In this document: positions 43,630-64,000 of the stretch, piece by piece | How positions within the stretch are numbered: position 1 is the stretch's first letter | How the letters are laid out: each line of letters opens with the position of its first letter | Assembly (NCBI GenBank): GCA_001314805.1 | Contig: LJSY01000001.1 | Coordinates: 66,975 to 130,974, forward strand | Direction of reading: 5' to 3' | DNA: 64,000 nt | From: Rhodobacteraceae bacterium HLUCCO18 | GTDB lineage: Bacteria > Pseudomonadota > Alphaproteobacteria > Rhodobacterales > Rhodobacteraceae | Program-made: the position numbers and the translations under genes | Notes under the pieces: model-generated | Databases searched by the model: none | The model's input: the letters and a program-made list of their open reading frames with translations, nothing else | Told to the model about the DNA's origin: nothing

Positions 43630-43653
43630 GACGGTCTCCGCTTGACGGAATAT

Positions 43654-43667
43654 TATGTGCAGACATA
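43654..43667. promoter_or_regulatory. candidate HutC operator
   Basis: TATGT-GCAG-ACATA is a perfect 5-bp inverted repeat with a 4-base spacer in an AT-rich patch between the divergent hutF and hutI genes. Known HutC sites are AT-rich palindromes with TGT/ACA half-sites, so the position and form fit. Binding is inferred. Confidence 0.6.
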
Positions 43668-43700
43668 TATAAATCCATATCGCCTGTGCCAAGGTCAATC

Positions 43701-48218: not shown

Positions 48219-48258
48219 GAGCGCGCGGATCGGCGTGGCGGTCCTTGCGGGGCATCCG

Positions 48259-48278
48259 CGGCAATGCGTCGATTGCCG
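48259..48278. terminator. weak hairpin between convergent hutU and IclR genes
   Basis: CGGCAAT and ATTGCCG form a 7-bp perfect stem with a six-base loop in the 82-bp convergent gap. No T run on either strand. A bidirectional terminator is plausible by position only. Confidence 0.35.
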
Positions 48279-48300
48279 ATGTCCTACAGGTGATCCGCCG

Positions 48301-49047
48301 CTAGGGCGCAGGCGCGTTCCAGCCCATCGCGCGGCTGATCGCATAGGCGGTCTTCAGGACCTCACGCTCCACCGAGGCGGGCACGGTGTCGGTCTGTTTC
48401 GTGGCGCTGATCGCCGCGACGACTTCGCCGGACATGTCGTGGATCGGGGCGGCGACACTGCACAGCCCGGTCTCGAAGCTGCCGTTATGGATGACCGAGG
48501 GGCTTGCGCTGTCTTTCCGCCAGGCGGCGAGCGCCTTCTCGGTGGCGGCTTTCGGCTGACCTTCCAGCAAGCGACGGATCTGCGGCTCGGTCTTCCGGCT
48601 CAGCAGCACCCGCCCCATGGCGGTCATCGTCGCCGGAAGGCGGCTGCCGACATGGACCAGCGACGACAGACCGTCGGAGGCCGGCAGCCGGATCAGGTAG
48701 AGGATATGCCGCCCGTCCAGCACGCCGAGATGACCGGACCAGTCCTGCGCGTCGCGCAGCGCCTCGAGCGGCTTCTGCGCCACTTCCAGCAACTCCCGGC
48801 TGGCGAGGTATCCATAGCTGACCCGCAGGACCGCCGGACCGAGGCGGAAATGGTTGCCGTCCCGGACCGGCAGCAGGAAACCCTCCTGCACCAGCGTGTG
48901 AACGGTGCGGAACACAGCCGAACGCGTGATGCCGAGCGTCTGCGCCAGTTGCGCCATCGTCTGCTCCGGGCGCTGCGGCGTGAAGGTCTGCAACAAGGTC
49001 AGCCCGCGCACGAGGCCGGGAACGGAATAGGGATCCTTGTCGCTCAT
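48301..49047 (-). CDS. IclR-family regulator, divergent from the cupin operon
   Basis: About 248 residues. N-terminal winged helix (VPGLVRGLTLLQTFTPQRPE, LAQTLGITRSAVFRTVHTLV) and C-terminal effector domain (LGVLDGRHILYLIRLPASDG, SRLPATMTAMGRVLLS, GLCSVAAPIHDMSGEVVAAI). It probably governs the diverging cupin-HTH-Rieske operon, 96 bp away, in response to an aromatic or related acid. GGAGGGG before ATG 49047 sets the start. A loose CGTTT-N8-AAACG repeat at 49061-49078 may be its site. Confidence 0.9.
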   Translation of the reverse strand: MSDKDPYSVPGLVRGLTLLQTFTPQRPEQTMAQLAQTLGITRSAVFRTVHTLVQEGFLLPVRDGNHFRLGPAVLRVSYGYLASRELLEVAQKPLEALRDAQDWSGHLGVLDGRHILYLIRLPASDGLSSLVHVGSRLPATMTAMGRVLLSRKTEPQIRRLLEGQPKAATEKALAAWRKDSASPSVIHNGSFETGLCSVAAPIHDMSGEVVAAISATKQTDTVPASVEREVLKTAYAISRAMGWNAPAP

Positions 49048-49060
49048 CACCCCTCCAGGG

Positions 49061-49078
49061 CGTTTCATGGGTAAAACG
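49061..49078. promoter_or_regulatory. loose inverted repeat, possible IclR site
   Basis: CGTTT and AAACG flank eight bases, just upstream of the IclR ATG in the divergent gap to the cupin operon. Only five paired bases, so chance occurrence is possible. It differs in sequence from the TTGAAC repeat next to the second IclR gene. Confidence 0.3.
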
Positions 49079-49143
49079 CGCGCTTCCCAACGAAACCCCC
49101 GGCCTTAGTGTCGGGTCAAGCAATTTCATACGGGAGACACGCC

Positions 49144-50100
49144 ATGAACATCGCCGCGAACCCTCAGGCCAGCCTTGCGGACCGCATGAAAGCCCATACC
49201 GGGCGCTTCGTCGACAAGACCTTCGACTGGAACGCCTTCCCGTCCAACGCCGGCTTCGACGACCTGGCGCGCGCGCAGATGCGCTATATCGGCGCCGGTG
49301 GCTCCCCCAAGGTGGGCGACCCCACGACGCTCAAGGCGGACAACTTCACGCTCAGCCTGATCTACAAGGAACCCGGCCGCTACGCCGCGTGCCACAGCCA
49401 CGAGATCGAGGAAAGCTTCCTCATCCTGTCGGGGGCGCTGGTCGTCGGCTGGGAAAAGCACGGCGAGGTCGTCGAGGTCAATCTCGGCCCCAGGGACATG
49501 ATCCTGAACGCGCGCGAGATCGGCCACGGTTTCCGCGTCGACGGGGTCGAGCCGGTGATCATGTCGATCTCGGTCGACGTGGGCAAGCCGCTGCCGCCGG
49601 TCTATCACTATCACCCCAAGGAGCATCCGGCGGAGCTGGCGCGCACCTTCGGCGCCGAGCCGGGCAAGACCATGCCCTTCGATCGCAACGGCACCCACGA
49701 GATCCAGAAGCTGATGGCCGACTACGTGGTGCGCTACACCGAACTGCCGACGATCTGGGAAGACGCGGGCTTCACGCGGAAGGTCTACGTGGGCGATGCG
49801 CCGGGCGCGGTGAAGCATGACAGCACGCGCAAGGAGATGTGGGGCCTGCCCATGGGGGCGAAACTGGCGCCCTTCACCCGCACGGTCGAGGATGCGTATC
49901 TCTGCGTGGAGGGCAGCGTCGAGGTCGTCTGGGTCGGCGAGGACGGCGAGGAAACCAGCGTCGAGCTTGGCCCCCGCGACCTGGTCAAGACGCCCGCGGG
50001 ACAGTCCCACTACCTGCGCAACCCCGGCGTCGGGCCGGCGACGGTCTGGACCGTGATCGGCACCTCGGGCGATGATGGCGCCGTCTACAGGAAGGGCTGA
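49144..50100 (+). CDS. bicupin protein, gentisate-dioxygenase-like
   Basis: About 318 residues with two cupin halves. The first has a metal-type motif CHSHEIEESFLILSGALVVG (His, His, Glu) and PRDMILNAREIGHGFRVDG. The second (about 225-310) keeps the fold (VEDAYLCVEGSVEVVWVGED, LGPRDLVKTPAGQSHYLRNP) but lacks the first two His, as in ring-cleaving gentisate-type bicupins where one half is active. Ring cleavage of a hydroxylated aromatic acid is plausible, not shown. CGGGAGA precedes ATG. First gene of a five-gene operon. Confidence 0.8.
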   Translation: MNIAANPQASLADRMKAHTGRFVDKTFDWNAFPSNAGFDDLARAQMRYIGAGGSPKVGDPTTLKADNFTLSLIYKEPGRYAACHSHEIEESFLILSGALVVGWEKHGEVVEVNLGPRDMILNAREIGHGFRVDGVEPVIMSISVDVGKPLPPVYHYHPKEHPAELARTFGAEPGKTMPFDRNGTHEIQKLMADYVVRYTELPTIWEDAGFTRKVYVGDAPGAVKHDSTRKEMWGLPMGAKLAPFTRTVEDAYLCVEGSVEVVWVGEDGEETSVELGPRDLVKTPAGQSHYLRNPGVGPATVWTVIGTSGDDGAVYRKG

Positions 50101-50105
50101 GCGCG

Positions 50106-50432
50106 ATGAGCAATGCCGGCACTCCCGGACGCCCCGACGCGTTCAAAGAAATGATGGCCGCCGCACGCGCCGCGGGCCGGCCGGAACTGGCCCATCAGGG
50201 CCGGGGCCGGCCCCTCAGCGCCGCGGAGGATGACTTCGCCGGGGCGCTCATGGCACTCTATGGCGAAGGGATCGCCGATCCGGCGGACCTTGCCGACGCC
50301 CTTGCCGCCCGCGGCGTCATCCGACCGTCCAGTGGCAGGCCCGACTGGACGGCCGAGACGCTGGCGGCCGAGTTGCAGGCGATCAACGCGGATCTGGACG
50401 CGGCATATCTCGAAAACGGCTTCGGAGCCTGA
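50106..50432 (+). CDS. small protein with recombinase-like helix-turn-helix
   Basis: 108 residues: GRPDAFKEMMAAARAAGRPE, a basic RGRPLS linker, then helices GALMALYGEGIADPADLADA and LAARGVIRPSSGRPDWTAET, whose pattern resembles the end HTH of serine recombinases and resolvases (ALAARGVRTPSGR-like). No catalytic domain. It starts 5 bp after the cupin gene and ends 12 bp before the Rieske gene, so it is a constant-looking operon member rather than a mobile-element remnant. Role unknown; local regulator or small oxygenase partner are both possible. Confidence 0.7.
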   Translation: MSNAGTPGRPDAFKEMMAAARAAGRPELAHQGRGRPLSAAEDDFAGALMALYGEGIADPADLADALAARGVIRPSSGRPDWTAETLAAELQAINADLDAAYLENGFGA

Positions 50433-50444
50433 GGGGAGGACACG

Positions 50445-51497
50445 ATGGCAGTATCGGCAGAGATGAGGGCCCGGATCGAGGCCCGCGTGAACGAAGGCGT
50501 CCGCGATCAATGGTATCCGGTCGCCAAATCGGTGGAGATCCGGGGCGACCGGCCCTTCGGCGCCGTGGCGCTGGGGCAGAAGCTGGTGATGTGGCGCCGC
50601 TCGGACGAGACGGTGCAGTGCATCGAGGATTTCTGCCCGCATCGCGGCGCGCCGCTGAGTTACGGCGAGATCCACGGCGAGAACATCGGCTGCCGCTATC
50701 ACGGCGTCGTGGTCGATGGCACAGGCACCGTGCAGCAGGTTCCCGCCATGCCCGATTGCCCGATGGAGGGGCGCAAGGCGCTGCGCTCCTACCACGTGGC
50801 CGAACACAGCGACGCGGTCTTCGTCTTCATGTCCTCCGACGAGGCGACGGTGCCCCCGCCCCTGCCGCTTTCGCCCGAACTGACCGATCCGGACTGGGCC
50901 GGCTTCCTGTGCACCGCCGTCTGGGATGTGAACTATCGCTACGCGCTCGACAACCTCGCGGACCCGATGCATGGCTGCTACCTGCACGCGGAGAGCTTCA
51001 CGCTGGCCTTCGGCTCCAAGCAGGACCTGCTGGAGCTGGAAAACCGCGAGAGCGGCTTTCGCGTGGCGCGCGTGGGCCAGACCGGCGAGAATTTCGACTG
51101 GGTCGAATTCGAGACGCCCGAAGGCGGCATGTATTGCCACCTCGACATCCCCTATCCGGCCTCGGCCGGGCCCGGCGGCAACATGCGGATCGTGGGCTAC
51201 GTCCTGCCCATGGGTCCGCAACGCTGCAAGGTGTTCTTCTGGCGGATGCGCAAGGTGCAGGGCTTCGAGCGCGACAGCTGGCGCTTCCTGTTCCGCGCGC
51301 GGCTGGAGGAACAGCACTGGAACGTGCTGGAGCAGGACCGCGTGATGCTCGAGGGGATGCCCGACGACGCGCGGCGGCGCGAGATGCTCTATCAGCACGA
51401 TATCGGCCTTGCGCATCTGCGGCGGGCGCTCAACCGTCTGGCGCGCGCGCAGATCGAGGCCGAGGACGCGGCGGCCGACGGCGTCGCCGCGCAATGA
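50445..51497 (+). CDS. Rieske 2Fe-2S ring-hydroxylating oxygenase, alpha subunit type
   Basis: 350 residues. N-terminal Rieske site CPHRGAPLSYG and CRYHG (residues about 65-87), then a catalytic domain with mononuclear iron motif DNLADPMHGCYLH (N-x2-D-x2-H-x4-H). The layout resembles vanillate O-demethylase and related phthalate-family oxygenases that act without a beta subunit. No ferredoxin or reductase gene accompanies it. It hydroxylates or demethylates an aromatic compound; substrate unknown. GAGGGGAGG precedes ATG. It overlaps the next SDR gene by ATGA. Confidence 0.9.
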   Translation: MAVSAEMRARIEARVNEGVRDQWYPVAKSVEIRGDRPFGAVALGQKLVMWRRSDETVQCIEDFCPHRGAPLSYGEIHGENIGCRYHGVVVDGTGTVQQVPAMPDCPMEGRKALRSYHVAEHSDAVFVFMSSDEATVPPPLPLSPELTDPDWAGFLCTAVWDVNYRYALDNLADPMHGCYLHAESFTLAFGSKQDLLELENRESGFRVARVGQTGENFDWVEFETPEGGMYCHLDIPYPASAGPGGNMRIVGYVLPMGPQRCKVFFWRMRKVQGFERDSWRFLFRARLEEQHWNVLEQDRVMLEGMPDDARRREMLYQHDIGLAHLRRALNRLARAQIEAEDAAADGVAAQ

Positions 51498-52222
51498 ACC
51501 TGAAGGGACGGCACATTCTCGTGTCCGGTGCGGCGCGCGGTCTGGGCGCAGTGATCGCCCGCCATCTCGCGGAGGCCGGCGCACGGCTGACCCTGACCGA
51601 TATCCTCGAGGAGGAGGGGCGCGCAGTGGCGGCCGAGCTTTCGGCCGATTTCCACCCTGTCGACCTGCGCGATCCGGCCAGCGTCGCGGCACTGGGCACG
51701 CAGCTTGACGGACCGTTGCACGGGCTGGTCAACAACGGGGCGATCGCCACCGGCATCGGCGGCATCGGGTTCGAGGATGTCGATATCGACACCTGGGACC
51801 GGGTGATGGAGGTCAACGTGCGCGGCACCTGGCTGATGACGCGGGCCGCTTCCCCTGCCCTGCGCGCCTCCGGCTCGGGGCGGATCGTCAACGTGGCCTC
51901 CGACACCGCGCTCTGGGGCGCGCCCAACCTGATGAGCTACGTGGCCTCCAAGGGCGCGGTGATCGCGATGACGCGGTCGCTGGCGCGGGAACTCGGCCCC
52001 GACGGGATCGGCGTGACGGCCATCGCACCGGGCATCCTGACCACCGAAAGCACCGAATACGTGCCACAGGCGCGCCATGACCAGTACGGGCAGGGCCGCG
52101 CGGTGCCCGGGGCGCAACCGCCCGAGGACGTCGCCGGAACCGTGGCCTTCCTGCTAAGCGAGGCGGCCCTGACGCTGACCGGGCAGGTTCTGCCGGTCAA
52201 CCGGGGCTTCGTGTTCACATGA
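51494..52222 (+). CDS. short-chain dehydrogenase/reductase
   Basis: About 242 residues, classical SDR: SGAARGLGAVIARHLAEAGA, NNGAIATGIG, catalytic Ser in VNVASDTALWGAPN, YVASK and PGILTTEST. Could be a dihydrodiol or hydroxyacid dehydrogenase acting on the Rieske product; the pairing suggests this, while the family alone does not. ATG overlaps the Rieske stop and its own stop overlaps the next ATG, so translation is tightly coupled. Confidence 0.88.
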   Translation: MNLKGRHILVSGAARGLGAVIARHLAEAGARLTLTDILEEEGRAVAAELSADFHPVDLRDPASVAALGTQLDGPLHGLVNNGAIATGIGGIGFEDVDIDTWDRVMEVNVRGTWLMTRAASPALRASGSGRIVNVASDTALWGAPNLMSYVASKGAVIAMTRSLARELGPDGIGVTAIAPGILTTESTEYVPQARHDQYGQGRAVPGAQPPEDVAGTVAFLLSEAALTLTGQVLPVNRGFVFT

Positions 52223-52749: not shown

Positions 52750-53928
52750 TCAGCGGCCCAAGCCGCCCGCCTCGGTCAATGTGCGCAACCGGTCGTAGAA
52801 CCCGTCCACCTTGTCCTGTGCCGTCGCGCGCATCTCGGCATGGCTGGCCGATGGGTCGCCCGTTTCCCGCGCACCGGCCTCGCCGACCGCGCGCGAGACG
52901 TCCTGCACGAAGGCGCAGACGGGAAAGCGCGCCCGGCCGAAGGCGGTCAGCGCCGCCTCAAGCGTGTCATGCGCCGCAAGTGCATCGGCAAGGACCACGG
53001 CGTCCTGCATCGCCATGGCACCGCCCTGCCCCATGAAGGGGGTCGAGGCATGGGCGGCATCGCCGATCAGCTGGACACGCCCCCGGTGCCACGGCAGAGG
53101 CAGGACGATTTCCTCGACCGCCGTATACAGCACCTCGGTCCCTGCCCCCAGCTCCGCGAGGAACGGGGCGGCGGGACCTGCGAACTCCGAAAACCGCGCG
53201 GCCATGAGCCGGGGCCAGTCGGCGGGCGCGTAATAGCTGTCCCCGGGCTCGGCCACGGTGCCGAAGGTATAAAGCAGCTCGTCGCTGATCGGCATGATGC
53301 CGAAACGCTTGGCCGGCCCCATCATCATGATCTTGTCGGTCAGCTCCGGCGGCCGGCGATGCACGGACCGCCAGACGCCCACCCCGGTGTAGCGCGGCGC
53401 AACCTCGATGCCGATCAGGGCGCGGGTGGCCGACCGCACGCCATCGGCGGCGATCACCAGATCGGCCCGTGCGAGGCTGCCATCCGACAGCGTCGCGGTG
53501 ACGCCCCCTGCCCCGTCCTTCAAACCCGTGACGGTCGTGCCCAGCTGTACCGGCACGCCGAGCGCCGCCACGCGACTTGCCATGACGCGGTGCATCTCGG
53601 CCCGCTTGATCCCGAGGATCGCGGGGATCCGGCCCGCGTCGGCGGTGGGATAGCGGGTCTCGACGATCGGCTGCCCGACGTGATCGTAATAGGCGTTGCG
53701 TCCTTCGGGCACGAGGAACCCAGCGGCGAGGATATCCTCCAGCAGGCCGATTTTCCCGAGGCTTTCCAGACCGTTGGCATAAACGAAGATGCCCGAGCTC
53801 TGGAACCGCCACGCCTCCTGCTTCTCGACGATCCGGACCCGGTGGCCGGTCTGCGTCAGCGCGATGGCGGCGCAGCAGCCGGCGATCCCGCCGCCCACGA
53901 TCAGTATGTCCATGGGGCGCTGCGGCAT
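52750..53928 (-). CDS. FAD-dependent aromatic-ring monooxygenase (last gene of TRAP-sulfatase operon)
   Basis: 392 residues, group A hydroxylase. Motifs: ILIVGGGIAGCCAAIALTQT, LVIAADGVRSATRALIG, VQLIGDAAHASTPFMGQGGA. It starts 4 bases after the sulfatase stop and converges 6 bp from the pentapeptide-like gene. One of two flavin hydroxylases bracketing this operon, so two ring hydroxylations or two alternative substrates are possible. ATG 53928 is used; Met at 53913 is an alternative. Confidence 0.88.
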   Translation of the reverse strand: MPQRPMDILIVGGGIAGCCAAIALTQTGHRVRIVEKQEAWRFQSSGIFVYANGLESLGKIGLLEDILAAGFLVPEGRNAYYDHVGQPIVETRYPTADAGRIPAILGIKRAEMHRVMASRVAALGVPVQLGTTVTGLKDGAGGVTATLSDGSLARADLVIAADGVRSATRALIGIEVAPRYTGVGVWRSVHRRPPELTDKIMMMGPAKRFGIMPISDELLYTFGTVAEPGDSYYAPADWPRLMAARFSEFAGPAAPFLAELGAGTEVLYTAVEEIVLPLPWHRGRVQLIGDAAHASTPFMGQGGAMAMQDAVVLADALAAHDTLEAALTAFGRARFPVCAFVQDVSRAVGEAGARETGDPSASHAEMRATAQDKVDGFYDRLRTLTEAGGLGR

Positions 53929-53932
53929 CGGT

Positions 53933-55498
53933 CTAGGCCTGATGCGTGGGCTGCAGGGATGTGTCCCTCAGCGCGATCTGGCGCAGGACGAGCTGCTGCA
54001 TCAGGTCCGCCTTGCGCGCCGCGAAGGCAGGATCGGCCCAGAGGTTCGACAGCTCGGACGGATCGGCGCCGAGGTCGTAAAGCTCCCCCAGATCGGAACC
54101 CTCGAACACCGTCATCCGCCAGCCGTCATGGACCAGCGTGCGGCTGGCGGTGCGGCCGTCGTCGCTGGCGAAGGCAAGGCCCGCATCCTCGATCAGGACG
54201 GGCAGTTCGGCGGCGTCCTCGGCCAGCAGGTCGCGCCCCTGCATGCCGACGGGGCATGCGATCCCGGCGCTTTGCAGCAGCGTCGGGGCGAAGTCGATGG
54301 CGCTGCCCTGCCGCGACGACACGGATGCGCCCGCCCGCCTCGGATCGGCCCAGATCAACGGCACGCGGATCAGCCCGTGGCTGTGAAGCCCGTGTTTCAG
54401 GACCGTGCCGTGATCGCCCATGTAATCGCCGTGATCCGACATGAAGACGACGACCGTGTTCTCCGCCTTGCCGGCTTGTTCCAGCGCGTCGAGGATCCGC
54501 CCGACCCAGTCGTCGATCATGGTGATCGCTCCGTAGTTCAGTGCAATCATCCGGCGCGTCGCCTCCGCGTCGCCGTGAAAGGGCCAGTAGGCGTCGGGGT
54601 TTTCCGCGCCGATCTCGTAGACACGCCGGATGTGGCGCGGCAGGTCCGTCCGGGCCGAGGTCGGATGGTCGAAGCTGTCGGGGAGCGGAATATCCGCCGG
54701 GTCATACATGTCGAAATAATGCCCCGGCGGCGTGAAGGGATGGTGCGGATCGGGGAAGGAGGCCAGCAGCAGAAACGGATCGTCGCTTGGGTCTTGCAGG
54801 AATTGGCAGGCCTCTTCGCCGACATAGGCGGTGGGATAAAGCGCCTCGGGCACCGCCGTCCGCCACATCTGGGGCGCGGCGCCGGGCGCGTTGCCAGCCG
54901 ACGCGGCGCGTCCGCGCGGATCGGGCGCGCCGTCCAGCCGGTCCCGCAGCCAGCCCGTGTAATGCCCCTCCACCTGATCGCCATGGCCGATGCACAGGCG
55001 CAGATGATCGAACCCGTAATAGGGAAGCGGCACGCCGCGGTCCGGGTCGTCGATCCAGCGGGTGCGGATCTCGTGTTCATACTCCGGCCCGCGCCGTTGG
55101 CCTCTGCGCGCCAGATTGAAGGGCTCGGGCGGGGCCTCGCCTTGCCCGGCCGGGGCTGGCGGCCGCGCCGGAACGGGCGAGACGTTCTGGAAATGCGCCT
55201 TGCCCACCAGCCCCGTGCGATAGCCCGCCGCACGCAGCACATCGGCATAGGTCGTGCAGTCGAGGCCAAGGGGAATACCGTTCTGGCGGCAGCCGTTGAC
55301 CGAGGTCAGCTGCCCCGTGGCCAGTGCGGCGCGGTTGGGCTGGCAGATCGGATTGGCGACGTAGAAACGATCGAACCGCGTGCCCCGCGCGGCCAGCGCA
55401 TCGATCCGCGGCGTGCGCAGGATGCCGTTGCCGTAGCAGCCAAGGTGATCGGCACGCTGCTGATCTGTCATGATGACAAGGAAATTCGGGCGGCTCAT
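53933..55498 (-). CDS. cysteine-type sulfatase
   Basis: About 521 residues, alkaline-phosphatase-superfamily sulfatase. N-terminal metal site NFLVIMTDQQRADHLG, formylglycine motif CQPNR within PICQPNRAALATGQL (C-x-P-x-R), later VVFMSDHGDYMGDHG and KHGLHSHGLIRVPLIW. No signal peptide, so it acts in the cytoplasm on a substrate already imported. It needs a formylglycine-generating enzyme, not seen here. ATG overlaps the dctM stop (ATGA); a long upstream extension of the frame runs inside dctM and is rejected. Choline-sulfatase identity is not supported. Confidence 0.9.
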   Translation of the reverse strand: MSRPNFLVIMTDQQRADHLGCYGNGILRTPRIDALAARGTRFDRFYVANPICQPNRAALATGQLTSVNGCRQNGIPLGLDCTTYADVLRAAGYRTGLVGKAHFQNVSPVPARPPAPAGQGEAPPEPFNLARRGQRRGPEYEHEIRTRWIDDPDRGVPLPYYGFDHLRLCIGHGDQVEGHYTGWLRDRLDGAPDPRGRAASAGNAPGAAPQMWRTAVPEALYPTAYVGEEACQFLQDPSDDPFLLLASFPDPHHPFTPPGHYFDMYDPADIPLPDSFDHPTSARTDLPRHIRRVYEIGAENPDAYWPFHGDAEATRRMIALNYGAITMIDDWVGRILDALEQAGKAENTVVVFMSDHGDYMGDHGTVLKHGLHSHGLIRVPLIWADPRRAGASVSSRQGSAIDFAPTLLQSAGIACPVGMQGRDLLAEDAAELPVLIEDAGLAFASDDGRTASRTLVHDGWRMTVFEGSDLGELYDLGADPSELSNLWADPAFAARKADLMQQLVLRQIALRDTSLQPTHQA

Positions 55499-56811
55499 CT
55501 GAACATCAGGTCGACCGGATAGGTCACCAGTTCGGGGATGAAGAAGATCAGCAGGATCGCCAGCAGGTCGAGCAGGATGAAGGGGATCGCCGCCCGGTAG
55601 ATGTCGCCCATCGTCGTGCCCTTGGGGGCCACGGCCTTCATCACGAACAGCGCCGCCCCGAACGGAGGCGATGTCGCCCCGGTCTCGATCGCCACGAGGA
55701 ACAGGGCGGCGAACCAGATCGGGTCCATGCCGAACTGCTGCACGATGGGCACGAAGATCGGCAGCGTGATCAGCATGATCGGCAACGGCCCCATGAACAT
55801 CCCCATGAAGACCACCAGCATGATCATCATGAAGACGATCGCGTCGTCCGAGATGTCGAGGCTCAGGACCGCATCGACCATCCCGAAGGTGGCCCCCGTG
55901 AAGGCCAGAAGCTGCGAGAAGGTGACGGCACCCGACACGATCAGCAGCACCATGACCGAGATGTTGGCGCTCGAGAACATCGTGTCGCCAAAGACCTTGG
56001 GCGTCAGGCGGCGGCGCAGTGCGGCCAGCAGCAGCGTGGCGAAAGCCCCCGTCGCGGCGGCCTCGCTGGGGGTGGCGATGCCCAGGAAGATGACGCCCAC
56101 GACCGAGAAGACGATCACCGACAGCGGCAGGATGTTGACGGTGGTGGCCGTCAGCTTTTCGCCCAGGCTGACCTTCGGAACATCGAAGGACGGCGCGAGA
56201 TGCGGCTGCAGGTGGCAGCGGCCGAGGATGTAGAGGACGTAGAGCAACGCCATCAAGAGCCCCGGCACGATGATGCCGATCAGGATGCGTCCGATCGAGA
56301 TATCGCCGATCACGCCCAGAACCACCGCCAGCGATGACGGCGGGATCATGATCGCAAGGCCCGAGGATCCGAGGATGGGCCCGAGCGACATCGGTTTCGC
56401 ATAGCCGCGCCGTTCCATCTCGGGCGTCAGCGACGATCCCAGAAGAGCGATGGAGCCCATGGAGTTTCCCGTGAGGGTCGAGAACAGGACGCCCCCGCCC
56501 ACGGCCATCAGCGCCAGCCGCCCGCGCAGCTTGCCGAACCACTTGTCGAGCGTGTCCATGAGGTCGATGGCGATGCCGGAGCGGAACATCGCCTCGCCCA
56601 TGATCATGAACAGCGCGATGGGGATCAGCGTGAAACTGGTCACGGAGCCGACGGTGTTCAGGACCAGTTGCTCGACGCCGGAAAAGCCGCCCATCAGGAT
56701 GTAGGATCCCACGAGGTTGATGGCGAGAAAGGCGAAGGCGACCGGCAGGCCCGCCAGCATCAGCGCGAACAGCGGGACCAGAACGATGGTGAGCGTGACA
56801 TACCATTCCAT
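55495..56811 (-). CDS. dctM: TRAP transporter large permease DctM
   Basis: 438 residues, about 12 spans. Typical LIPIALFMIMGEAMFRSGIA, LFSTLTGNSMGSIALLGSSL, LGSSGLAIMIPPSSLAVVLG and FLGIATPSEAAATGAFATLL. Na+-driven uptake of a carboxylate-type solute from DctP. It starts 3 bases after dctQ and overlaps the sulfatase gene by ATGA, linking uptake and desulfation. Confidence 0.95.
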   Translation of the reverse strand: MEWYVTLTIVLVPLFALMLAGLPVAFAFLAINLVGSYILMGGFSGVEQLVLNTVGSVTSFTLIPIALFMIMGEAMFRSGIAIDLMDTLDKWFGKLRGRLALMAVGGGVLFSTLTGNSMGSIALLGSSLTPEMERRGYAKPMSLGPILGSSGLAIMIPPSSLAVVLGVIGDISIGRILIGIIVPGLLMALLYVLYILGRCHLQPHLAPSFDVPKVSLGEKLTATTVNILPLSVIVFSVVGVIFLGIATPSEAAATGAFATLLLAALRRRLTPKVFGDTMFSSANISVMVLLIVSGAVTFSQLLAFTGATFGMVDAVLSLDISDDAIVFMMIMLVVFMGMFMGPLPIMLITLPIFVPIVQQFGMDPIWFAALFLVAIETGATSPPFGAALFVMKAVAPKGTTMGDIYRAAIPFILLDLLAILLIFFIPELVTYPVDLMFR

Positions 56812-56814
56812 CGC

Positions 56815-57315
56815 TCAGATCGCCTCGCCACGCAGGGTGCGGATGATCTGGTCGAGGAACTGGACGGCCATCAGGGCCATGCCCACCGGCAGGGCCGCGG
56901 TGATCCACCAGCTTTGCGGACGCATCACCGTCACCAGCCGGACGCCCAGGTCGTATTGCTCGATCACCACGCTGACGCCGACGACGGTCAGCAGCGCGCA
57001 CAGAACGAACCCGATGGTCGCATTCATGAGTTGCAGGATCAGGCGCCAGCCGTGCGGCAGGCTGTCATGGACCAGATCCATGACCACGTGCAGGTTCTTT
57101 TCCAGAAGGTACGGCGCACCGAGGAAGGTGATGAACAGGAGCGCGTATTCGCTGACCTCGATCACCCAGATCTGGGACGCGCCGCCGAGCCAGCGGATGA
57201 CGACCTCGAAACAGATGATCGCCGCGATCATGGACAGGAGCACCGCCCCGATCACGGCACAGAACAGGTTCAGGCGGCTGAACACGCGCCTCAGCTGGGT
57301 CAGGGTGCGGTCCAC
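56815..57315 (-). CDS. dctQ: TRAP transporter small permease DctQ
   Basis: 166 residues with four spans; LFCAVIGAVLLSMIAAIICF, RWLGGASQIWVIEVSEYALL (the E of the DctQ signature), FLGAPYLLEKNLHVVMDLVH and a final SWWITAALPVGMALMAVQFL. It starts after a 77-bp gap that holds a perfect stem-loop. Confidence 0.92.
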   Translation of the reverse strand: MDRTLTQLRRVFSRLNLFCAVIGAVLLSMIAAIICFEVVIRWLGGASQIWVIEVSEYALLFITFLGAPYLLEKNLHVVMDLVHDSLPHGWRLILQLMNATIGFVLCALLTVVGVSVVIEQYDLGVRLVTVMRPQSWWITAALPVGMALMAVQFLDQIIRTLRGEAI

Positions 57316-57340
57316 CTTCTGCCTTCCGTTCTTGACAATG

Positions 57341-57369
57341 GGCGGGGTCGGAGCACGCCCGACCCCGCC
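57341..57369 (-). repeat. 11-bp perfect stem-loop between dctP and dctQ
   Basis: GGCGGGGTCGG (57341-57351) pairs exactly with CCGACCCCGCC (57359-57369) across seven bases. No T run. It occupies the same place, after the binding-protein gene and before the permease genes, as the tctC/tctB hairpin, and probably keeps dctP mRNA in excess. Inferred. Confidence 0.7.
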
Positions 57370-57392
57370 GTTTCGCGCGTCACATCAGGCCG

Positions 57393-58367
57393 TCAGCGGT
57401 CCAGCATCTCGCGAAGCTCGGCCGCGATCTCGGCGCCCGCGTTTTCCGCCGTCATGCCCCATGCCGCATCCATGGCCATGGCCTCATACTGCGCGGCCTC
57501 GTCCTCGGGCAGCATGAGGTAGTTGAACCCGGCCGCTTCCTGCGCGGCCCGTTCGGTCGCGATGTCCTCGGCCCAGATATCGTCCATCCGGGGGGCGAAA
57601 TCCTCGCGCAGGAAGGTGACGAACCGCTCCTGCAGGTCGGGCGACATCTCGTTGAACAGGTCCATGTTCATCAGAACCGGGAAACCCGCGCGGTAGACGC
57701 CGGGCTGAACGACCGTCTCCACCAGCCCCTCGAACTGCGCCGCCTGACCCAGCGGGCCCTGCATGAACCCGTCGATGGTGCCGCGTTCCAGCGCGGTGTA
57801 GATTTCCTCCATCGGCAGGACGATGGGCTCGGCGCCGAGCGCCTGGGCCAACGGCAGAAGCGTCGGGAAGACGCGGATGCGCTTGCCTTCCAGGTCGGCG
57901 AGGCCGGTGACCTCGTCGGCCATGTAGATCTGGAAATTCAGCTGCGTGGCCGGGATTTCGCCGATGAACGCGAGATCCTGTTCGGCGTGCAGCTCGGTCA
58001 TCCGCTCGTGGTAATCGGTGGCCGCGATCTCTTCGTAGTTCAGGAAGGACAGGTTCATCGTGCCCGAGGTCGGCACCAGGCCCTGGTAGTAGCTGGGGCT
58101 GGTATAGGTCATGCCCATTGCGCCGTTGCGCACGCCCTCGGCCTGACCGAAGGGCGGCATGACCTCCGGGCCGCCCCGCCAGTTGATCTCGATCTCGCCT
58201 TCGAAGCGTTCGTTCACTTCCTCGACGAACTGGGCGAAGGGCTCGGTGATGTAGACCGACCGGGGCGCCAGCGTCACGGCGTTGATCTGGACCGGATCGG
58301 CAAAGGCCGGGGCGGCGGCTGCGGCAACGCCGGCGGCAAGCAAGGCGGTGCTAAACACGTGTTTCAT
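57393..58367 (-). CDS. dctP: TRAP transporter solute-binding protein DctP
   Basis: About 324 residues. Signal peptide MKHVFSTALLAAGVAAAAAP with cleavage near AFA-DP. The mature part shows the DctP pattern: VEEVNERFEGEIEINWRGGP, GLADLEGKRIRVFP with the carboxylate-binding Arg, and VLPMEEIYTALERGTIDGF. Ligand unknown, probably an organic acid. ATG 58367 has GGGAG and lies 17 bp inside the end of the upstream hydroxylase gene. Confidence 0.93.
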   Translation of the reverse strand: MKHVFSTALLAAGVAAAAAPAFADPVQINAVTLAPRSVYITEPFAQFVEEVNERFEGEIEINWRGGPEVMPPFGQAEGVRNGAMGMTYTSPSYYQGLVPTSGTMNLSFLNYEEIAATDYHERMTELHAEQDLAFIGEIPATQLNFQIYMADEVTGLADLEGKRIRVFPTLLPLAQALGAEPIVLPMEEIYTALERGTIDGFMQGPLGQAAQFEGLVETVVQPGVYRAGFPVLMNMDLFNEMSPDLQERFVTFLREDFAPRMDDIWAEDIATERAAQEAAGFNYLMLPEDEAAQYEAMAMDAAWGMTAENAGAEIAAELREMLDR

Positions 58368-59520
58368 GGGAACTCCCGTTGTGAGTGGACTGATCGAGCG
58401 GCGTGGTCCAGGCGTTGTAGCCATAGACCCAATCCGCGTTGCCGGCCTTCTTGAGCCAGTCATTGGCAAGCGAGCTTTCCTGGACCCGCGCGGTGCGGGG
58501 CTTGCGTTCCGTTTCGTAGCGCGCGAGCGCGGCCTCTATATCGTCGGTGCGGTCTGCGCTTGCGAGGGCGCGGGCCAGCACCACCGCATCCTCGATGGCC
58601 ATGCAGGCGCCCTGCGCCATGAAGGGCACCATCGGATGCGCCGCGTCGCCCAGAAGCGTCGCGCGCCCCTTGGCCCATTGCGGCATCGGATCGCGCACAT
58701 GCAGCGCCGATCGCGTGACATCGTCCAGCGAGTCCAGCAGCTTGCGGGCGTCGCCGTGGAAATTGGCATAGGCACGGCGCAGATCCTCGGCATCGCCGGG
58801 CAGCGTCCAGCCTTCCTCGGACCAATCCTCCTGCGGCAGGGTGGCGAAGACGAAGATTTCCCGCCCCCCGGTCAGCGGGAAGGTCACGATCTGCTTTTCG
58901 GGCACCTCGCCCCACCACTTGGTGAAGGCGTCGGTGTCGGGAAGCCCCGCGGCCCTGTCGCTGGGGAACGTGCCGCGATAGGACACCATGCCGGTGTAGC
59001 GCGGATGATCCTCGCCCCAGAGCGCGGTGCGCACGACCGAGTGGATGCCGTCCGCGCCGATCACCACGTCGAAGGCCCCGCGCGTGCCATCGGCAAAACC
59101 CAGCGTCGCCTGCCCCGCGCCAAGCTCCAGCGAGACCGACCCCATTCCAAGGCGCAGCCTGTCCTCGGGCAGGCGCGCGCGCAGGGCGTCCAGCAGATCG
59201 GCGCGGTGGATCGTCAGTTGCGGCGCGCCGTATTTCTCCTCCGCCGCCGCACTCATCGGCAGGCGGGAGGTCTCCTCGCCGCTGACGCCGTCCCGGCTGA
59301 TGCGAAAGCTGGGGCGCGCCGCGCTGTCGCGCAGGTAGGGGCCGACGCCCAGCTGGTCGAGAGCGAAGACGGCGTTCGGCGTCAGGTTGACATCGGCCCC
59401 GACCCGGTTGAAGGCCCGCGCCTTTTCGAAGACCTGCACGTCGTGACCAGCCTGATGCAGCGCGATGGCGGCGCAAAGACCGCCGATGCCACCCCCGCAT
59501 ATGCCGATTGAAAGCGCCAC
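58351..59520 (-). CDS. FAD monooxygenase, salicylate/6-hydroxynicotinate hydroxylase-like
   Basis: 389 residues, group A flavin hydroxylase. FAD motif IGICGGGIGGLCAAIALHQA, DG motif VVIGADGIHSVVRTAL, second FAD motif TLLGDAAHPMVPFMAQGACM. The N-terminal region around FRISRDGVSGEETSRLPM and APQLTIHRADLLDAL resembles NicC-type enzymes. First gene of a six-gene operon with the TRAP transporter, the sulfatase and another hydroxylase; it faces the second IclR gene across a perfect inverted repeat. Confidence 0.88.
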   Translation of the reverse strand: MALSIGICGGGIGGLCAAIALHQAGHDVQVFEKARAFNRVGADVNLTPNAVFALDQLGVGPYLRDSAARPSFRISRDGVSGEETSRLPMSAAAEEKYGAPQLTIHRADLLDALRARLPEDRLRLGMGSVSLELGAGQATLGFADGTRGAFDVVIGADGIHSVVRTALWGEDHPRYTGMVSYRGTFPSDRAAGLPDTDAFTKWWGEVPEKQIVTFPLTGGREIFVFATLPQEDWSEEGWTLPGDAEDLRRAYANFHGDARKLLDSLDDVTRSALHVRDPMPQWAKGRATLLGDAAHPMVPFMAQGACMAIEDAVVLARALASADRTDDIEAALARYETERKPRTARVQESSLANDWLKKAGNADWVYGYNAWTTPLDQSTHNGSSHETRV

Positions 59521-59553
59521 TTTGTCCCCTTTGGTCTTGCCGGGTGTTCTATA

Positions 59554-59570
59554 TTGAACTATATGTTCAA
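59554..59570. promoter_or_regulatory. perfect inverted repeat, candidate IclR operator
   Basis: TTGAAC-TATAT-GTTCAA, six paired bases around five, in an AT-rich island between the divergent hydroxylase operon and the IclR gene (33 bp from the hydroxylase ATG). The form and spacing suit an IclR dimer site. Binding is inferred. Confidence 0.65.
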
Positions 59571-59666
59571 ACGTAGGTTATGAGGACCCGTGCGGTCAAC
59601 AGTTTTCCGCCGCGCGGCTCCGGCACGCAGCACCCCGCGCAGACCTGAACGACAGGACAGATCCCC

Positions 59667-60461
59667 ATGGGCGACACGCCATCCCAGACCCCCTACTCCG
59701 TGCCCCCGGTGGAGCGGGCGCTGAAGCTTCTGCATTACATCGGCGAAGGGCAGCGGGCGCGGAACCTGTCCACCGTGTCGCGCGATCTGGGGATTAACCG
59801 CACGACCCTGATCCGCCTGATCCATACCCTTCTGGAACACCGCATGATCGAGGAACTGGGCGACGGCGGCGGCTACCGGCTGGGCGCCGGGATGGTCAGC
59901 CTCGGCGCGCAGGCCATCCAGGGGCGGGACATCGTGCAGATCTGCCAGCCGATCCTGCGGGAACTGTGCCTTGAAACCGGCATGTCGGCGCATCTGGGGG
60001 TGCTGGACGGGCGCGACATCATCTATCTCGGGCGCGAGGCGCCCAATTCCCATCTCGTCAGCAACGTGCGCACCGGATCGCGGCTGGCGGCCCACGCCTC
60101 GTCGATCGGACGCGCGATCCTCGCGGAATGCTCCGAGACGCAGCTGCGGCAGATCTTTTCCGGCGATCCACCCCAGACGGCGACCGACAAGACGCCGCGG
60201 ACGATCGAGGAGATCATCGCGCAGGCCCGCCACGACAAGGCCGAGGGCTTCGCCTGGAGCCAGGGGAATTTCGAGGCGGGCATCGGGTCCTGCGCGGCGG
60301 CGGTCTTCGATCATACCGGGCAGGTCGTGGGCGGCATCAACGTGTCCGGCCCCGAGGCGCGCTTCGCCGCCGGTCCCGAAGGCCGCGACCCGGCCCTGAT
60401 CGACGCGGTCACCTCGGCCGCGCGCAGGGCCTCGGCCGCGCTGGGTCACACCGCGCGCTAG
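59667..60461 (+). CDS. IclR-family regulator, divergent from the hydroxylase-TRAP-sulfatase operon
   Basis: 264 residues. Winged helix (VPPVERALKLLHYIGEGQRA, DLGINRTTLIRLIHTLLEHR) and effector domain (LGVLDGRDIIYLGREAPNSH, TGSRLAAHASSIGRAILAEC, SCAAAVFDHTGQVVGGINVS). It likely senses the substrate or an intermediate of the divergent operon. It shares only family-level features with the first IclR, 10 kb away. The stop overlaps that of the converging aldehyde dehydrogenase gene. Confidence 0.92.
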   Translation: MGDTPSQTPYSVPPVERALKLLHYIGEGQRARNLSTVSRDLGINRTTLIRLIHTLLEHRMIEELGDGGGYRLGAGMVSLGAQAIQGRDIVQICQPILRELCLETGMSAHLGVLDGRDIIYLGREAPNSHLVSNVRTGSRLAAHASSIGRAILAECSETQLRQIFSGDPPQTATDKTPRTIEEIIAQARHDKAEGFAWSQGNFEAGIGSCAAAVFDHTGQVVGGINVSGPEARFAAGPEGRDPALIDAVTSAARRASAALGHTAR

Positions 60462-61936
60462 GGCCATCTGGCCCAGGGATGCGGCTGGCCGGACATGTCC
60501 TCGTAGATCGACTTCTGCCGCTGGTAGGCGCGCAGACCCGCGCGCCCTTTCTCGCGTCCGATCCCGCTTTCGCCATCGCCGCCGAAGGGCGTCGAGATCG
60601 AGAACTGCTTGTAGGTGTTGATCCAGACCGTGCCGGCCCGGATGGCGGCCGCGATGCGCCGGCAGCGGCGGTGGTCGGTCGACCAGATGCCGCAGGCGAG
60701 GCCATAGTCGTTGTCATTGCCCTGCGCGATCACGTCGGCCTCGTCCTCGAAGGGCATCACGACCAGCACGGGGCCGAATATCTCCTCCCGGCAAGTGCGC
60801 GCGGTGTTGTCGAGCCCGGCGATGATCGTGGGCATGTAATAGGCACCCGATTGCAGCGCTGCCGCCTCGGGCCGCGTACCGCCGCACAGGATCGTGCCGC
60901 CCTCGTCCCGGGCCAGCGCCACGTAGCGTTCCACGGCTTCGCGATGCTCGGGATGAACCAGCGAGGACACCTGCGTCGCCGCGTCGAAAGGATGGCCGAC
61001 CACCAGCGCCCGCGTCGCGTCGACCAGCCGCGCGACGAAGGCCTCGTACATGCTGCGCTGCACGAACAGGCGCGACCCCGCGATGCAGCTTTGCCCCGAG
61101 GACGAGAAGATGCCGAAGAGGATCCCCGCGATCGCCAGATCGACATCGCAATCCTCGAACACGATCGTCGGTGACTTGCCGCCCAGTTCCAGCGAGACCG
61201 GCATCAGCTTTTCCGCCGCCGCATGGGCCAGCCTGCGCCCCGTCGCCGTGCCGCCGGTGAACGAGACCTTGGCGATGTCGCGATGCTCGACCAGCGCGTT
61301 GCCCACCTCGCGGCCCGAGCCCGGCAGGACCGACAAAAGCCCTTGCGGCAGTCCCGCTTCCTCGGCGATGCGCGCCAGTTCGAGGCTGACCAGCGGCGAC
61401 CAGCTGGCCGGTTTCAGCAAGACGGCGTTGCCCGCGGCAAGGGCCGGCGCGACCTTCTGGGCGTCGGACGCGATGGGCGAATTCCACGGCGTGATCGCCG
61501 CCACCAGCCCCAGCGGCTCGTGGATCGAAGCCGTGGTATAGTCGCCGCGCGGCACCGTCAGCAGGTCGTCCGAGGTTTCCGCCACGGCCGCGAAATACCG
61601 GAAGGTGCCCGCAGCCGAGGTCGCCAGCGCGCGGGTTTCGGCCAGGGTCTTGGAGGTGTCGCGGCTTTGTACCCAGGCGATGCGGTCGATATTGGCGGCG
61701 ATGCCCTCGGATATGCGGTAGAGCACCGTGGCGCGTTCATGGGGCTTGAGCGCCCCCCATCCCGGTTGCGCGTCGCGCGCGCGGGCGATGGCAAGCTCCA
61801 CATCCTCCGCCGCCGCACCGCTCAGCGTTGTGTTGACGCTGCCCTCGGCGGCGAATTGCGAGGTGATCGGCGCGCCGCGCCCTTTTTGCCAATGGCCTCC
61901 GACAAAGATCAGGTCGTCGCGAAATGTCTGCTCCAT
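60458..61936 (-). CDS. NAD(P)-dependent aldehyde dehydrogenase
   Basis: 492 residues. Cofactor loop ITPWNSPIASDAQKVAPALA, FTGGTATGRRLA, catalytic Glu in SLELGGKSP and catalytic Cys in SSGQSCIAGSRLF. Close in pattern to hydroxymuconic or betaine-type aldehyde dehydrogenases; substrate not fixed. It starts 7 bp after the aspartate-dehydrogenase-like gene, on the same strand, and ends against the IclR gene. Confidence 0.92.
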   Translation of the reverse strand: MEQTFRDDLIFVGGHWQKGRGAPITSQFAAEGSVNTTLSGAAAEDVELAIARARDAQPGWGALKPHERATVLYRISEGIAANIDRIAWVQSRDTSKTLAETRALATSAAGTFRYFAAVAETSDDLLTVPRGDYTTASIHEPLGLVAAITPWNSPIASDAQKVAPALAAGNAVLLKPASWSPLVSLELARIAEEAGLPQGLLSVLPGSGREVGNALVEHRDIAKVSFTGGTATGRRLAHAAAEKLMPVSLELGGKSPTIVFEDCDVDLAIAGILFGIFSSSGQSCIAGSRLFVQRSMYEAFVARLVDATRALVVGHPFDAATQVSSLVHPEHREAVERYVALARDEGGTILCGGTRPEAAALQSGAYYMPTIIAGLDNTARTCREEIFGPVLVVMPFEDEADVIAQGNDNDYGLACGIWSTDHRRCRRIAAAIRAGTVWINTYKQFSISTPFGGDGESGIGREKGRAGLRAYQRQKSIYEDMSGQPHPWARWP

Positions 61937-61943
61937 GGTACCC

Positions 61944-62753
61944 TCAGATGGCGATCGCGGCGCGCCGGTTCACGACGGCGCGCGCGATGCTGTAAACGGT
62001 GGATCGGGACGTCTTGGGGTTTCGCGGCGACGGCTTGCCCACCAGTTGCATGGAAAACTCCAGCGCCTGCGAGGTGACGCGGAAGGCGTGTGTGTTCTCG
62101 GTCGTGCCGGGGTCGGCGACGAGGCGGACACGCGTTCTGTCCATGCCCAGCCCCGCCAGAGCCAGCGTCGCGGCGACATTGGCGTTCTTGGGATAGCTCT
62201 GCGCCGCCTCCCGCGCGCTGCCCTCGAAGAAGGTGAAGGGCGCGGTGAGCGCGGCAAGGTCGGTCACCTCCTCGGCCGGCGTGCCGGCCCAGGCGCCCGG
62301 CGGCTTGGTGCCGGTGTAATCGACCGAGATCAGCCCCGAGAGACGCGCCGCGCCAAGTGCGTCGATGCCGCCGATGGCCCCGGCGGGCACGAGGCATTGC
62401 GCCCCCGAGGCCCGCGCGGCGGTGTCCAGCCCGGCGGCGAGCTCCGCCTCCGCCAGGGCCCCGACCGAGGCCACGATCAGGTCCGTGCCGCCGGCCAGCA
62501 CCGCCGCCCCGAAGGCCGCCACCGCACCGTGTCCGGCGCATTCGACGACCACGTCGGGGCGCGCCGCCAGCACGCTGTCCAGCGACGATGTCACCGATGC
62601 CGTCCCGCCAAGCGCCGCGCGAACCTCCGCCTCGCGGCCTGGGCGCACCAGCACGGAGACGTGCTCGGGCGCGCGTTCCTGCGCAGCGAGGATGTCGATC
62701 AGGTCGCGGGCGATCGCCCCGAACCCGATGATCGCGACGTGACCGAGGCTCAT
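61944..62753 (-). CDS. aspartate dehydrogenase-like protein (NadX family)
   Basis: About 269 residues. Rossmann start VAIIGFGAIARDLIDILAAQ, CAGHGAVAAFGAAVLAGGTD, PAGAIGGIDALGAARLSGL and a C-terminal TTENTHAFRV with the conserved His. The family deaminates L-aspartate or reduces iminoaspartate; in catabolic clusters paralogues may act on other amino or keto acids. ATG overlaps the TPP-enzyme stop (ATGA). A role in NAD synthesis is less likely, as no nadA/nadC is near. Confidence 0.85.
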   Translation of the reverse strand: MSLGHVAIIGFGAIARDLIDILAAQERAPEHVSVLVRPGREAEVRAALGGTASVTSSLDSVLAARPDVVVECAGHGAVAAFGAAVLAGGTDLIVASVGALAEAELAAGLDTAARASGAQCLVPAGAIGGIDALGAARLSGLISVDYTGTKPPGAWAGTPAEEVTDLAALTAPFTFFEGSAREAAQSYPKNANVAATLALAGLGMDRTRVRLVADPGTTENTHAFRVTSQALEFSMQLVGKPSPRNPKTSRSTVYSIARAVVNRRAAIAI

Positions 62754-64000
62754 GACTTGCCGCCCGCCGCCCCGGCCGGCGGTCCGGCGAAGGATTCCGC
62801 GAAGGGACCGATGGACACCATGTCGACCTCCACGACCGCGGGGCCGGTCCGCCCGAGGGTCGCGTCCAGCGCCTGCGGGAAATCCTCGATCCGCGCGACG
62901 CGGGCATGGGGCATGTCGATGGACTGGCACAGCAGCCGGAAATCGGGCGTCTTGAGCTTGGAATAATGCCTGCGCCCGTCGTATTGCGCGTCCTGGATGT
63001 TCTCGATCACGCCATAGGCCGCGTCGTTCATCAGCACGAAGGTGATCGGCAGGTCCGCGTCGACCGCCGTGATCAGCTCGGCAAGGCCAAGCTGCGCCCC
63101 GCCGTCGCCCACCAGCGCGATGGTGCGCGCCTCGGATCCCGCCGCCGCCCCGATGGCCATGGCGATCCCCTGCCCGATGCCGCCGCCCAGGGCGTGGACG
63201 CCAAGATGCGGCGCCGCGATCTGGACGTAGCGGTTGCCGAAGGTGGAGTTCGAGATCGTCACGTCCCGCACCCATGGGTGACCGCCCTGCGGCACCACCG
63301 CCAGCAGATGATCGGCGACCACCTGATAGGGCCCGAGGCGCGCGCGCAGCGCGCCTTCCGATTTCGCGCGGGCCACGGCGATGTCGTAATGCAGCTGCGG
63401 GTCGGTCTGCAGCCTGTCGGGAAGACGGTCCAGAAGCGCCCGCAGCGTCGCCGCCGCGTCGCCGCACAGGAACCCGTCGACCGGGTAGTTGCGCCCGCCC
63501 TGCGCAGGCTCCACGTCGATCTGGAACAGCGGGCGCGGCAGCGGCATCTTGTTGTTGCGCGTCTCGTTGCCCCGCAGCCGCGAGCCCACGACGATCATCA
63601 GGTCGCAGCCGCGATAGAGCGCCTCGGCCTCGGGGGTCATGTTGAAGGCCCCGAGCGTGCCCTTGTGGGTTTCGGGAACCACCGCGCGCCCTTGCGTGGA
63701 CGTGACCGCGCCGAAGCCGCGTTCGACCAGCTCCGACGCCTCGGCCCCGGCGCCCCGCGCGCCGCCACCGAGCCAGAGCATCGGCCGTTTCGCGGATGTC
63801 ACCCGTTCGGCCAGCGCGTCGAGGGCGGCCTCCTCCACCGGCGGCAGAGCCGGGCGCGGTGGGGTCAGGCGCAATCCCGGCACTGCGGGGATGCGCTGCA
63901 CGTCGACGGGCACCTCGAGGCTGACCGGACCCGTGGGCGGCGTCATCGCCGCGCGGATCGCGGCCGAGAGCGTGCCAAGAACCCCCATCTCGTCCCAGAT
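62750..64000 (-). CDS. thiamine-pyrophosphate-dependent enzyme (acetolactate synthase-like), cut by window edge
   Basis: The last 416 codons are visible; the frame stays open to base 64000. TPP site VGDGGAQLGLAELITAVDAD followed by the Mg-binding LMNDAAYGVIENI, a central domain with MLWLGGGARGAGAEASELV, and VPVDVQ-type linker (VSLEVPVDVQRIP). Family members are decarboxylases or carboligases of 2-oxo acids such as benzoylformate or acetolactate; the substrate cannot be told without the N terminus. Operon with the aspartate-dehydrogenase-like and aldehyde dehydrogenase genes. Confidence 0.85.
   Translation of the reverse strand: MWDEMGVLGTLSAAIRAAMTPPTGPVSLEVPVDVQRIPAVPGLRLTPPRPALPPVEEAALDALAERVTSAKRPMLWLGGGARGAGAEASELVERGFGAVTSTQGRAVVPETHKGTLGAFNMTPEAEALYRGCDLMIVVGSRLRGNETRNNKMPLPRPLFQIDVEPAQGGRNYPVDGFLCGDAAATLRALLDRLPDRLQTDPQLHYDIAVARAKSEGALRARLGPYQVVADHLLAVVPQGGHPWVRDVTISNSTFGNRYVQIAAPHLGVHALGGGIGQGIAMAIGAAAGSEARTIALVGDGGAQLGLAELITAVDADLPITFVLMNDAAYGVIENIQDAQYDGRRHYSKLKTPDFRLLCQSIDMPHARVARIEDFPQALDATLGRTGPAVVEVDMVSIGPFAESFAGPPAGAAGGKS

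Follow-up and report, generated by a model that had tools for sequence, protein, structure and literature searches.

A three-box element at two operon promoters as the probable operator of an IclR-family regulator in an aromatic-type catabolic gene cluster

We found that the divergent gap between an IclR-family regulator gene (iclR1) and an FAD-dependent aromatic hydroxylase gene of Rhodobacteraceae bacterium HLUCCO18 carries a three-box element, GTTC-N6-GAAC-N5-GTTC, which recurs at the promoter of a second operon, and sequence comparison makes it probable that both copies are operators of IclR1, most likely for repression until an inducer is present. In an initial annotation of the window, that is, the whole stretch of 64,000 nt that was analysed, a perfect 17-bp symmetric site had been described between the IclR gene and its target, and the letters agree exactly: TTGAACTATATGTTCAA (TTGAAC-N5-GTTCAA) lies at 59554-59570 with zero mismatches, inside a 146-bp gap between the minus-strand hydroxylase gene (start 59520) and the plus-strand iclR1 (start 59667). 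We counted 33 bases from the 17-mer to the GTG of the hydroxylase, the distance that had been given, and 96 to the ATG of iclR1. The AT-rich island was found as well, the 40 bp surrounding the 17-mer having a GC content of 35% against 67.5% in the window, and among the window's 222 perfect inverted repeats with 6-bp arms only this one is at least 70% AT. A scan of the genome (3,684,589 bases; 3.68 Mb) at up to one mismatch returned one perfect and five one-mismatch copies. One of the five (C83:134048) lies on the same contig, 7.5 kb off and past the window end; three (on contigs C22, C29 and C51) are inside open frames of 178-504 codons, which are weak coding evidence in a GC-rich genome, and the remaining one is at C67:4237. 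The features are listed here in window coordinates.

59545-59570, no strand: putative three-box operator 1 (26 bp), defined from the sequence; 12 of 12 box letters in 12 loci
59546-59549: box1 of operator 1, GTTC
59556-59559: box2 of operator 1, GAAC
59565-59568: box3 of operator 1, GTTC
59594-59599, minus: candidate -35 TTGACC of the hydroxylase/TRAP operon, its first T 31 nt upstream of box3
59570-59575, minus: candidate -10 TACGTT, spacer 18, one base from box3, a weak consensus match
59667-60461, plus: iclR1, IclR-family regulator of 264 aa (Pfam), presumed operator binder
58351-59520, minus: FADmo1, FAD-dependent aromatic hydroxylase (Pfam FAD_binding_3), first gene of target operon 1
55495-58367, minus: TRAP transporter genes dctP, dctQ and dctM (Pfam DctP, DctQ, DctM), presumed operon 1
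53933-55489, minus: sulfatase (Pfam Sulfatase), presumed operon 1
52750-53928, minus: FADmo2, second FAD hydroxylase (Pfam FAD_binding_3), presumed last gene of operon 1
60458-61936, minus: aldehyde dehydrogenase (Pfam Aldedh), last gene of target operon 2, convergent with iclR1
61944-62750, minus: aspartate-dehydrogenase-like protein (Pfam Asp_DH_C, NAD_binding_3), operon 2
62750-64000, cut by the window end, minus: thiamine-diphosphate (ThDP) enzyme (NF005470, 761 bits), operon 2
48301-49068, minus: IclR2, the other IclR gene

The 17-mer makes up two thirds of the full element (59546-59568), consisting of box2 and box3 with flanking TT and AA. The third box was recognised from the comparison of two copies, both reading GTTC-N6-GAAC-N5-GTTC, the second of which (operator 2) is at G000:C83:134040-134062, equivalent to window positions 67066-67088 and thus outside the window, 7.5 kb from operator 1. 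Operator 2 precedes the convergent operon (ABH-VOC-SDR-ThDP-AspDH-ALDH) in the same orientation to its gene as operator 1. Since that operon starts with the same element, the regulator very probably serves two operons. The initial observation was therefore right, and its reading of the site as an operator candidate, supported by the conservation described below, holds and is extended, having been incomplete in that there are three boxes rather than two and two putative target operons rather than one. About 0.27 three-box matches are expected per genome by a Markov estimate. When further copies were sought in the own genome at up to three mismatches, 81 matches were obtained, the reversed pattern giving 27; the two operators account for the perfect match and for the one with a single mismatch, and the others carry two (8) or three (71) mismatches. 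One match outside the operators, exact for a 13-letter form of the pattern, is on contig C15, with GC-rich spacers and within a 415-codon open frame.

Both gene sets look as if made for the breakdown of aromatic compounds. FADmo1 has 3-hydroxybenzoate 6-monooxygenase as its best NCBIfam match, at a score below the cut-off, and its GTG start is 25 nt past box1, a position that is similar in the relatives. Operon 2, of the meta-cleavage type, continues beyond the window, where the ThDP gene begins at window-equivalent 64399 and is followed by genes for an SDR protein, a VOC dioxygenase and an alpha/beta hydrolase (ABH), up to operator 2; the extents of both operons are presumed. At their 3' ends, iclR1 and the aldehyde dehydrogenase gene share four bases, tail to tail (60458-60461). 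IclR1 is placed in the IclR family by HTH_IclR (37.0 bits, cut-off 22) and IclR_C (115.2 bits, cut-off 24), and it falls below the curated cut-offs of its best NCBIfam, the BhcR equivalog NF045644 (134.1 bits against 350), and of the PcaR/PcaU/PobR subfamily TIGR02431 (133.7 bits against 284.75). Among the papers that literature searches listed, none dealt with the operator, and one search for at least four of six pathway components together gave no paper on such an aromatic-type cluster.

We then compared the relatives of IclR1. These came from a scan of named genomes, which gave six loci (IclR identity of 72% or more in five and of 26% in one, from Colwellia), and from further samples of 394, 390 and 385 genomes; in the same-class sample of 385 genomes, the window's own genome was the single one with an IclR1 match at 1e-50, and no IclR1 relative was seen in the viral contigs searched. 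Three loci (L013, L042 and L043) were taken as duplicates of L009, L008 and L010 and left out. The initial annotation had staked its reading on conservation beside orthologous IclR genes, and all 12 box letters were present beside iclR1 in 12/12 loci whose IclR1 is at least 64% identical, the own locus included. A second full copy stands at the start of the ABH operon, in the same orientation, in all ten loci whose sequence reaches there; of the other two, the contig of L054 ends earlier and L055 has no ABH operon that we could find in 15 kb. All 22 of these canonical sites carry three alternating boxes, the boxes' full information content following from a search that demanded them exactly. 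In ten whole genomes of the group with at least 64% identity there were 19 exact matches to the 13-letter pattern, 18 of which are these operators and one the C15 match of the own genome, while 20 relatives without a strong iclR1 match (none at 1e-30 in one sample or at 1e-50 in another) gave six exact matches in six genomes, against two for the reversed pattern and about one by the Markov estimate.

Among 19 more distant rows (IclR1 at 46-52% identity), nine have a full match and ten have none within the available stretch. In the IclR1 tree, the element is found in 0/9 rows of one clade (support 96/99) and in 21/22 of the rest, counts that come from related rows and are not independent events; the fork that groups most element-bearing rows has a support of only 84/83. 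Whether a row has the element accords with its place in the IclR1 tree. A changed local layout is seen in five loci (L057, L061, L063, L065 and L066), where roughly 0.9 to 7.6 kb separate the site from iclR1. The scan with the 17-mer gave two 2-mismatch copies about 1.5-2 kb upstream of the iclR match in the Colwellia locus (L011); in the lower-scoring IclR loci L028-L041 it gave copies with one mismatch in L039 and L041 and with two in L029, L031 and L037, and no copy in the other nine. In L055 (G174:C5:1-15000), no hydroxylase gene was seen between iclR1 and the TRAP gene, nor operon 2 in the 15 kb; the operator is retained there, facing the TRAP gene, and the contig starts inside the TRAP genes.

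Sites of this general build have been described. In the available part of their study, Suvorova and Gelfand (2021; PMC8222616) present two groups of IclR motifs and predict sites of three alternating boxes in 32 orthologous groups, for which PcaU, PobR and HmgR are the experimental precedents. The element resembles those three-box sites in its alternating boxes, in its GTTC/GAAC-like letters and in the aromatic catabolism of the precedents, and, like the sites in that part of the study, it lies at a common distance from the start of its gene, between -20 and -80 nt. It differs in spacing, reading TGT-10-ACA and ACA-N3-TGT (clearest in operator 2, L005:10040-10064), whereas the main consensuses printed there have 11 or 12 bases within the first pair (TGT-11/12-ACA) and one or two within the second (ACA-N1-2-TGT); the middle box is thus about one base nearer to box1 than in the printed spacings, and the outer boxes have a period of 19 bp. 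The spacings of 10 and 3 lie outside those printed, which are given in that part as main consensuses and not as a stated requirement. The shift is a small variation rather than a new kind of site, and the element fits the known description of three-box IclR operators. As far as the accessible text of its report goes (PMC13273656), the proposed mechanism of IclR1 has a close counterpart in PheR of Sphingobium sp. SHPJ-2, an IclR-family repressor of an aromatic catabolic operon that protects -21 to +23 of its promoter; PheR differs in its core motif (GCAACG), substrate and gene set. Similarly, the portion available on BhcR of Paracoccus denitrificans (PMC11323563) describes an iclR gene that is transcribed divergently and has a candidate palindrome in the intergenic region, as for iclR1, although the pathway there is the beta-hydroxyaspartate cycle.

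Next to the element, we found a conserved pair of promoter-like hexamers. TTGAC is present on the target strand 31-38 nt upstream of box3 in 22/22 canonical sites, compared with a background of 0.0006 per position in the loci; the distance is 31 nt at the 12 first sites (33 in L052) and 33-38 nt at the 10 second sites. A [CT]ANNNT hexamer follows at a spacer of 17 or 18 in all 22, while other spacers from 5 to 25 give it in at most 4/22. Where a hydroxylase gene is present (11 of the first sites), its start is 22-28 nt past box1, with other in-frame starts closer in L051 and L052. No promoter of iclR1 itself was found by eye. Because the conserved -35/-10-like pair stands directly before the element, the transcription start is expected within box3 or immediately ahead of it, where the element would cover it, which suggests repression by promoter blocking.

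The comparison shows the sequence and how rare it is, that it is conserved together with iclR1, that it stands before two operons and that the promoter-like spacing is kept; we infer that IclR1 binds at both sites, that its control is negative, how far the two operons extend and that an inducer exists. Without inducer, IclR1, as a dimer or a tetramer, would lie across the three boxes and block RNA polymerase at both promoters; a substrate or intermediate of the pathway, as an aromatic effector bound by the C-terminal domain, would release it, so that uptake, hydroxylation and ring breakdown would be switched on together. An aromatic-type catabolic cluster thereby gains a concrete candidate operator, a presumed regulator and a predicted regulon of two operons, and the matched sequences can be used directly in gel shifts and in a search for the inducer and hence the substrate. 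The one-base shift of the middle box is regular and can serve to test the idea that IclR proteins dimerise in alternative ways. The element is well supported yet otherwise ordinary regulatory biology.

We consider it unlikely that IclR1 acts through this element as an activator or in a dual role, activating and repressing, although both are described for some members of the IclR family. PcaU and PobR act as activators. Their three-box sites belong to regulators of the IclR family in the available part of the motif survey (PMC8222616), and a dual action is discussed for BhcR in the portion of its report at hand (PMC11323563). The -10 hexamers are also weak ([CT]ANNNT), as would suit an activator-dependent promoter, and a strict sigma-70 consensus scan reported no promoter here. 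However, the element is downstream of the presumed -35 and over the presumed start in 22/22 sites, and a distance variation of 7 nt would be unusual for activation. With a distance from -35 to box3 that varies over 31-40 nt, steric blocking by IclR1 fits better than activation from a fixed face of the DNA.

That another regulator, for example IclR2, binds the element and iclR1 merely adjoins it seems improbable. An IclR2 homologue is present in 10/10 genomes searched, G174 included, so co-occurrence alone cannot separate IclR1 from IclR2 as the binder; in the case of L055, the IclR2 homologue is found elsewhere on the same contig. Against IclR2, the element lies in the iclR1 gap and tracks the IclR1 tree, the gap between IclR2 and its cupin gene has a different repeat, and a Vibrio plasmid stretch carries iclR1 and both elements without IclR2, as far as that stretch extends. 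IclR1 is hence the preferred binder because of the place, the tree and the different repeat at IclR2, and not because IclR2 is absent.

At the other IclR gene, as had been noted, there is no matching repeat, the 17-mer being absent from 46850-51715 at up to three mismatches. Around the IclR2 start and on towards the divergent cupin gene (49062-49096) there is instead the repeat GTTTCA / TAAAAC / GAAAC, with parts at 49062, 49072 and 49092. Inspected by eye, parts 1 and 2 occur in the corresponding gap in L070-L073 and part 3 in L071-L073 and not in L070, and variants are seen in L074, L054 and the more distant L061-L063 and L065-L067. This repeat is a candidate operator of IclR2, and at the DNA level it supports separate control of IclR2, in line with the initial suggestion that the two operons answer separate signals. 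The plus-strand genes beside IclR2 (49144-52222) encode a cupin protein, an oxygenase of the Rieske type (50445-51497) and an SDR protein. The distant relatives L061, L063, L066 and L067 have IclR1 and IclR2 as near neighbours, and one IclR2 homologue (G079:C5:18650-19387) contains one internal stop.

It is very improbable that autoregulation of iclR1 is the sole role of the site: the divergent gap in which it lies is shared with iclR1, whose start is 96 bp away, but the second copy has no adjoining iclR gene, and both copies take the same place relative to the catabolic genes. A chance palindrome can be dismissed, since, common as 6-bp inverted repeats are in the window (no more so than the 225-281 of five shuffles), a first-order Markov model predicts 0.0005 perfect 17-mers per window and 0.03 per genome, and the site is conserved in all 12 close loci.

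The closest plasmid match is a conjugative plasmid of Vibrio nigripulchritudo, a member of another class, whose IclR is about 51% identical and whose stretch has a GC content of 44%. The gene order on the operon-2 side is the same, with an added cupin gene, and the full element is present at both expected places: copy 1 between a hydroxylase-like sequence (58-67% identical, in three pieces) and iclR, and copy 2 upstream of a cupin-hydrolase-VOC operon, each copy lying downstream of a TTGACA, at 40 or 38 nt from its first base. In the 28.7-kb stretch of this plasmid, the search for IclR2 matched nothing besides iclR1 itself. A second Vibrio record (L100) also has both full copies and was left out of the counts. 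Two Paracoccus plasmids have the same IclR match, one (L099) with one full copy and the other (L101) with a one-mismatch copy only; both carry a one-mismatch three-box copy (L099:11899 and L101:11899) about 100 nt ahead of the IclR match, which in L099 is additional to the full copy. The Nitratireductor and Pseudosulfitobacter plasmids showed no element at up to one mismatch. As a tentative and rather doubtful extension, this IclR group may combine a box geometry (10 and 9 bp, start to start) between the two printed motif groups with a regulator and operator pair that moves among bacterial classes on plasmids as a self-contained switch, the operators and promoter hexamers being nearly the sole conserved letters of rewritten gaps.

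The cluster, at window-equivalent positions 48301-67058 (the end lying outside the window), looks accessory. The same-genus genomes G235 and G411 have no strong iclR1 match, and a related cluster is found on the conjugative Vibrio plasmid. Beyond the IclR2 side of the cluster lies a histidine-use gene, encoding formimidoylglutamate deiminase (HutF, 42250-43698).
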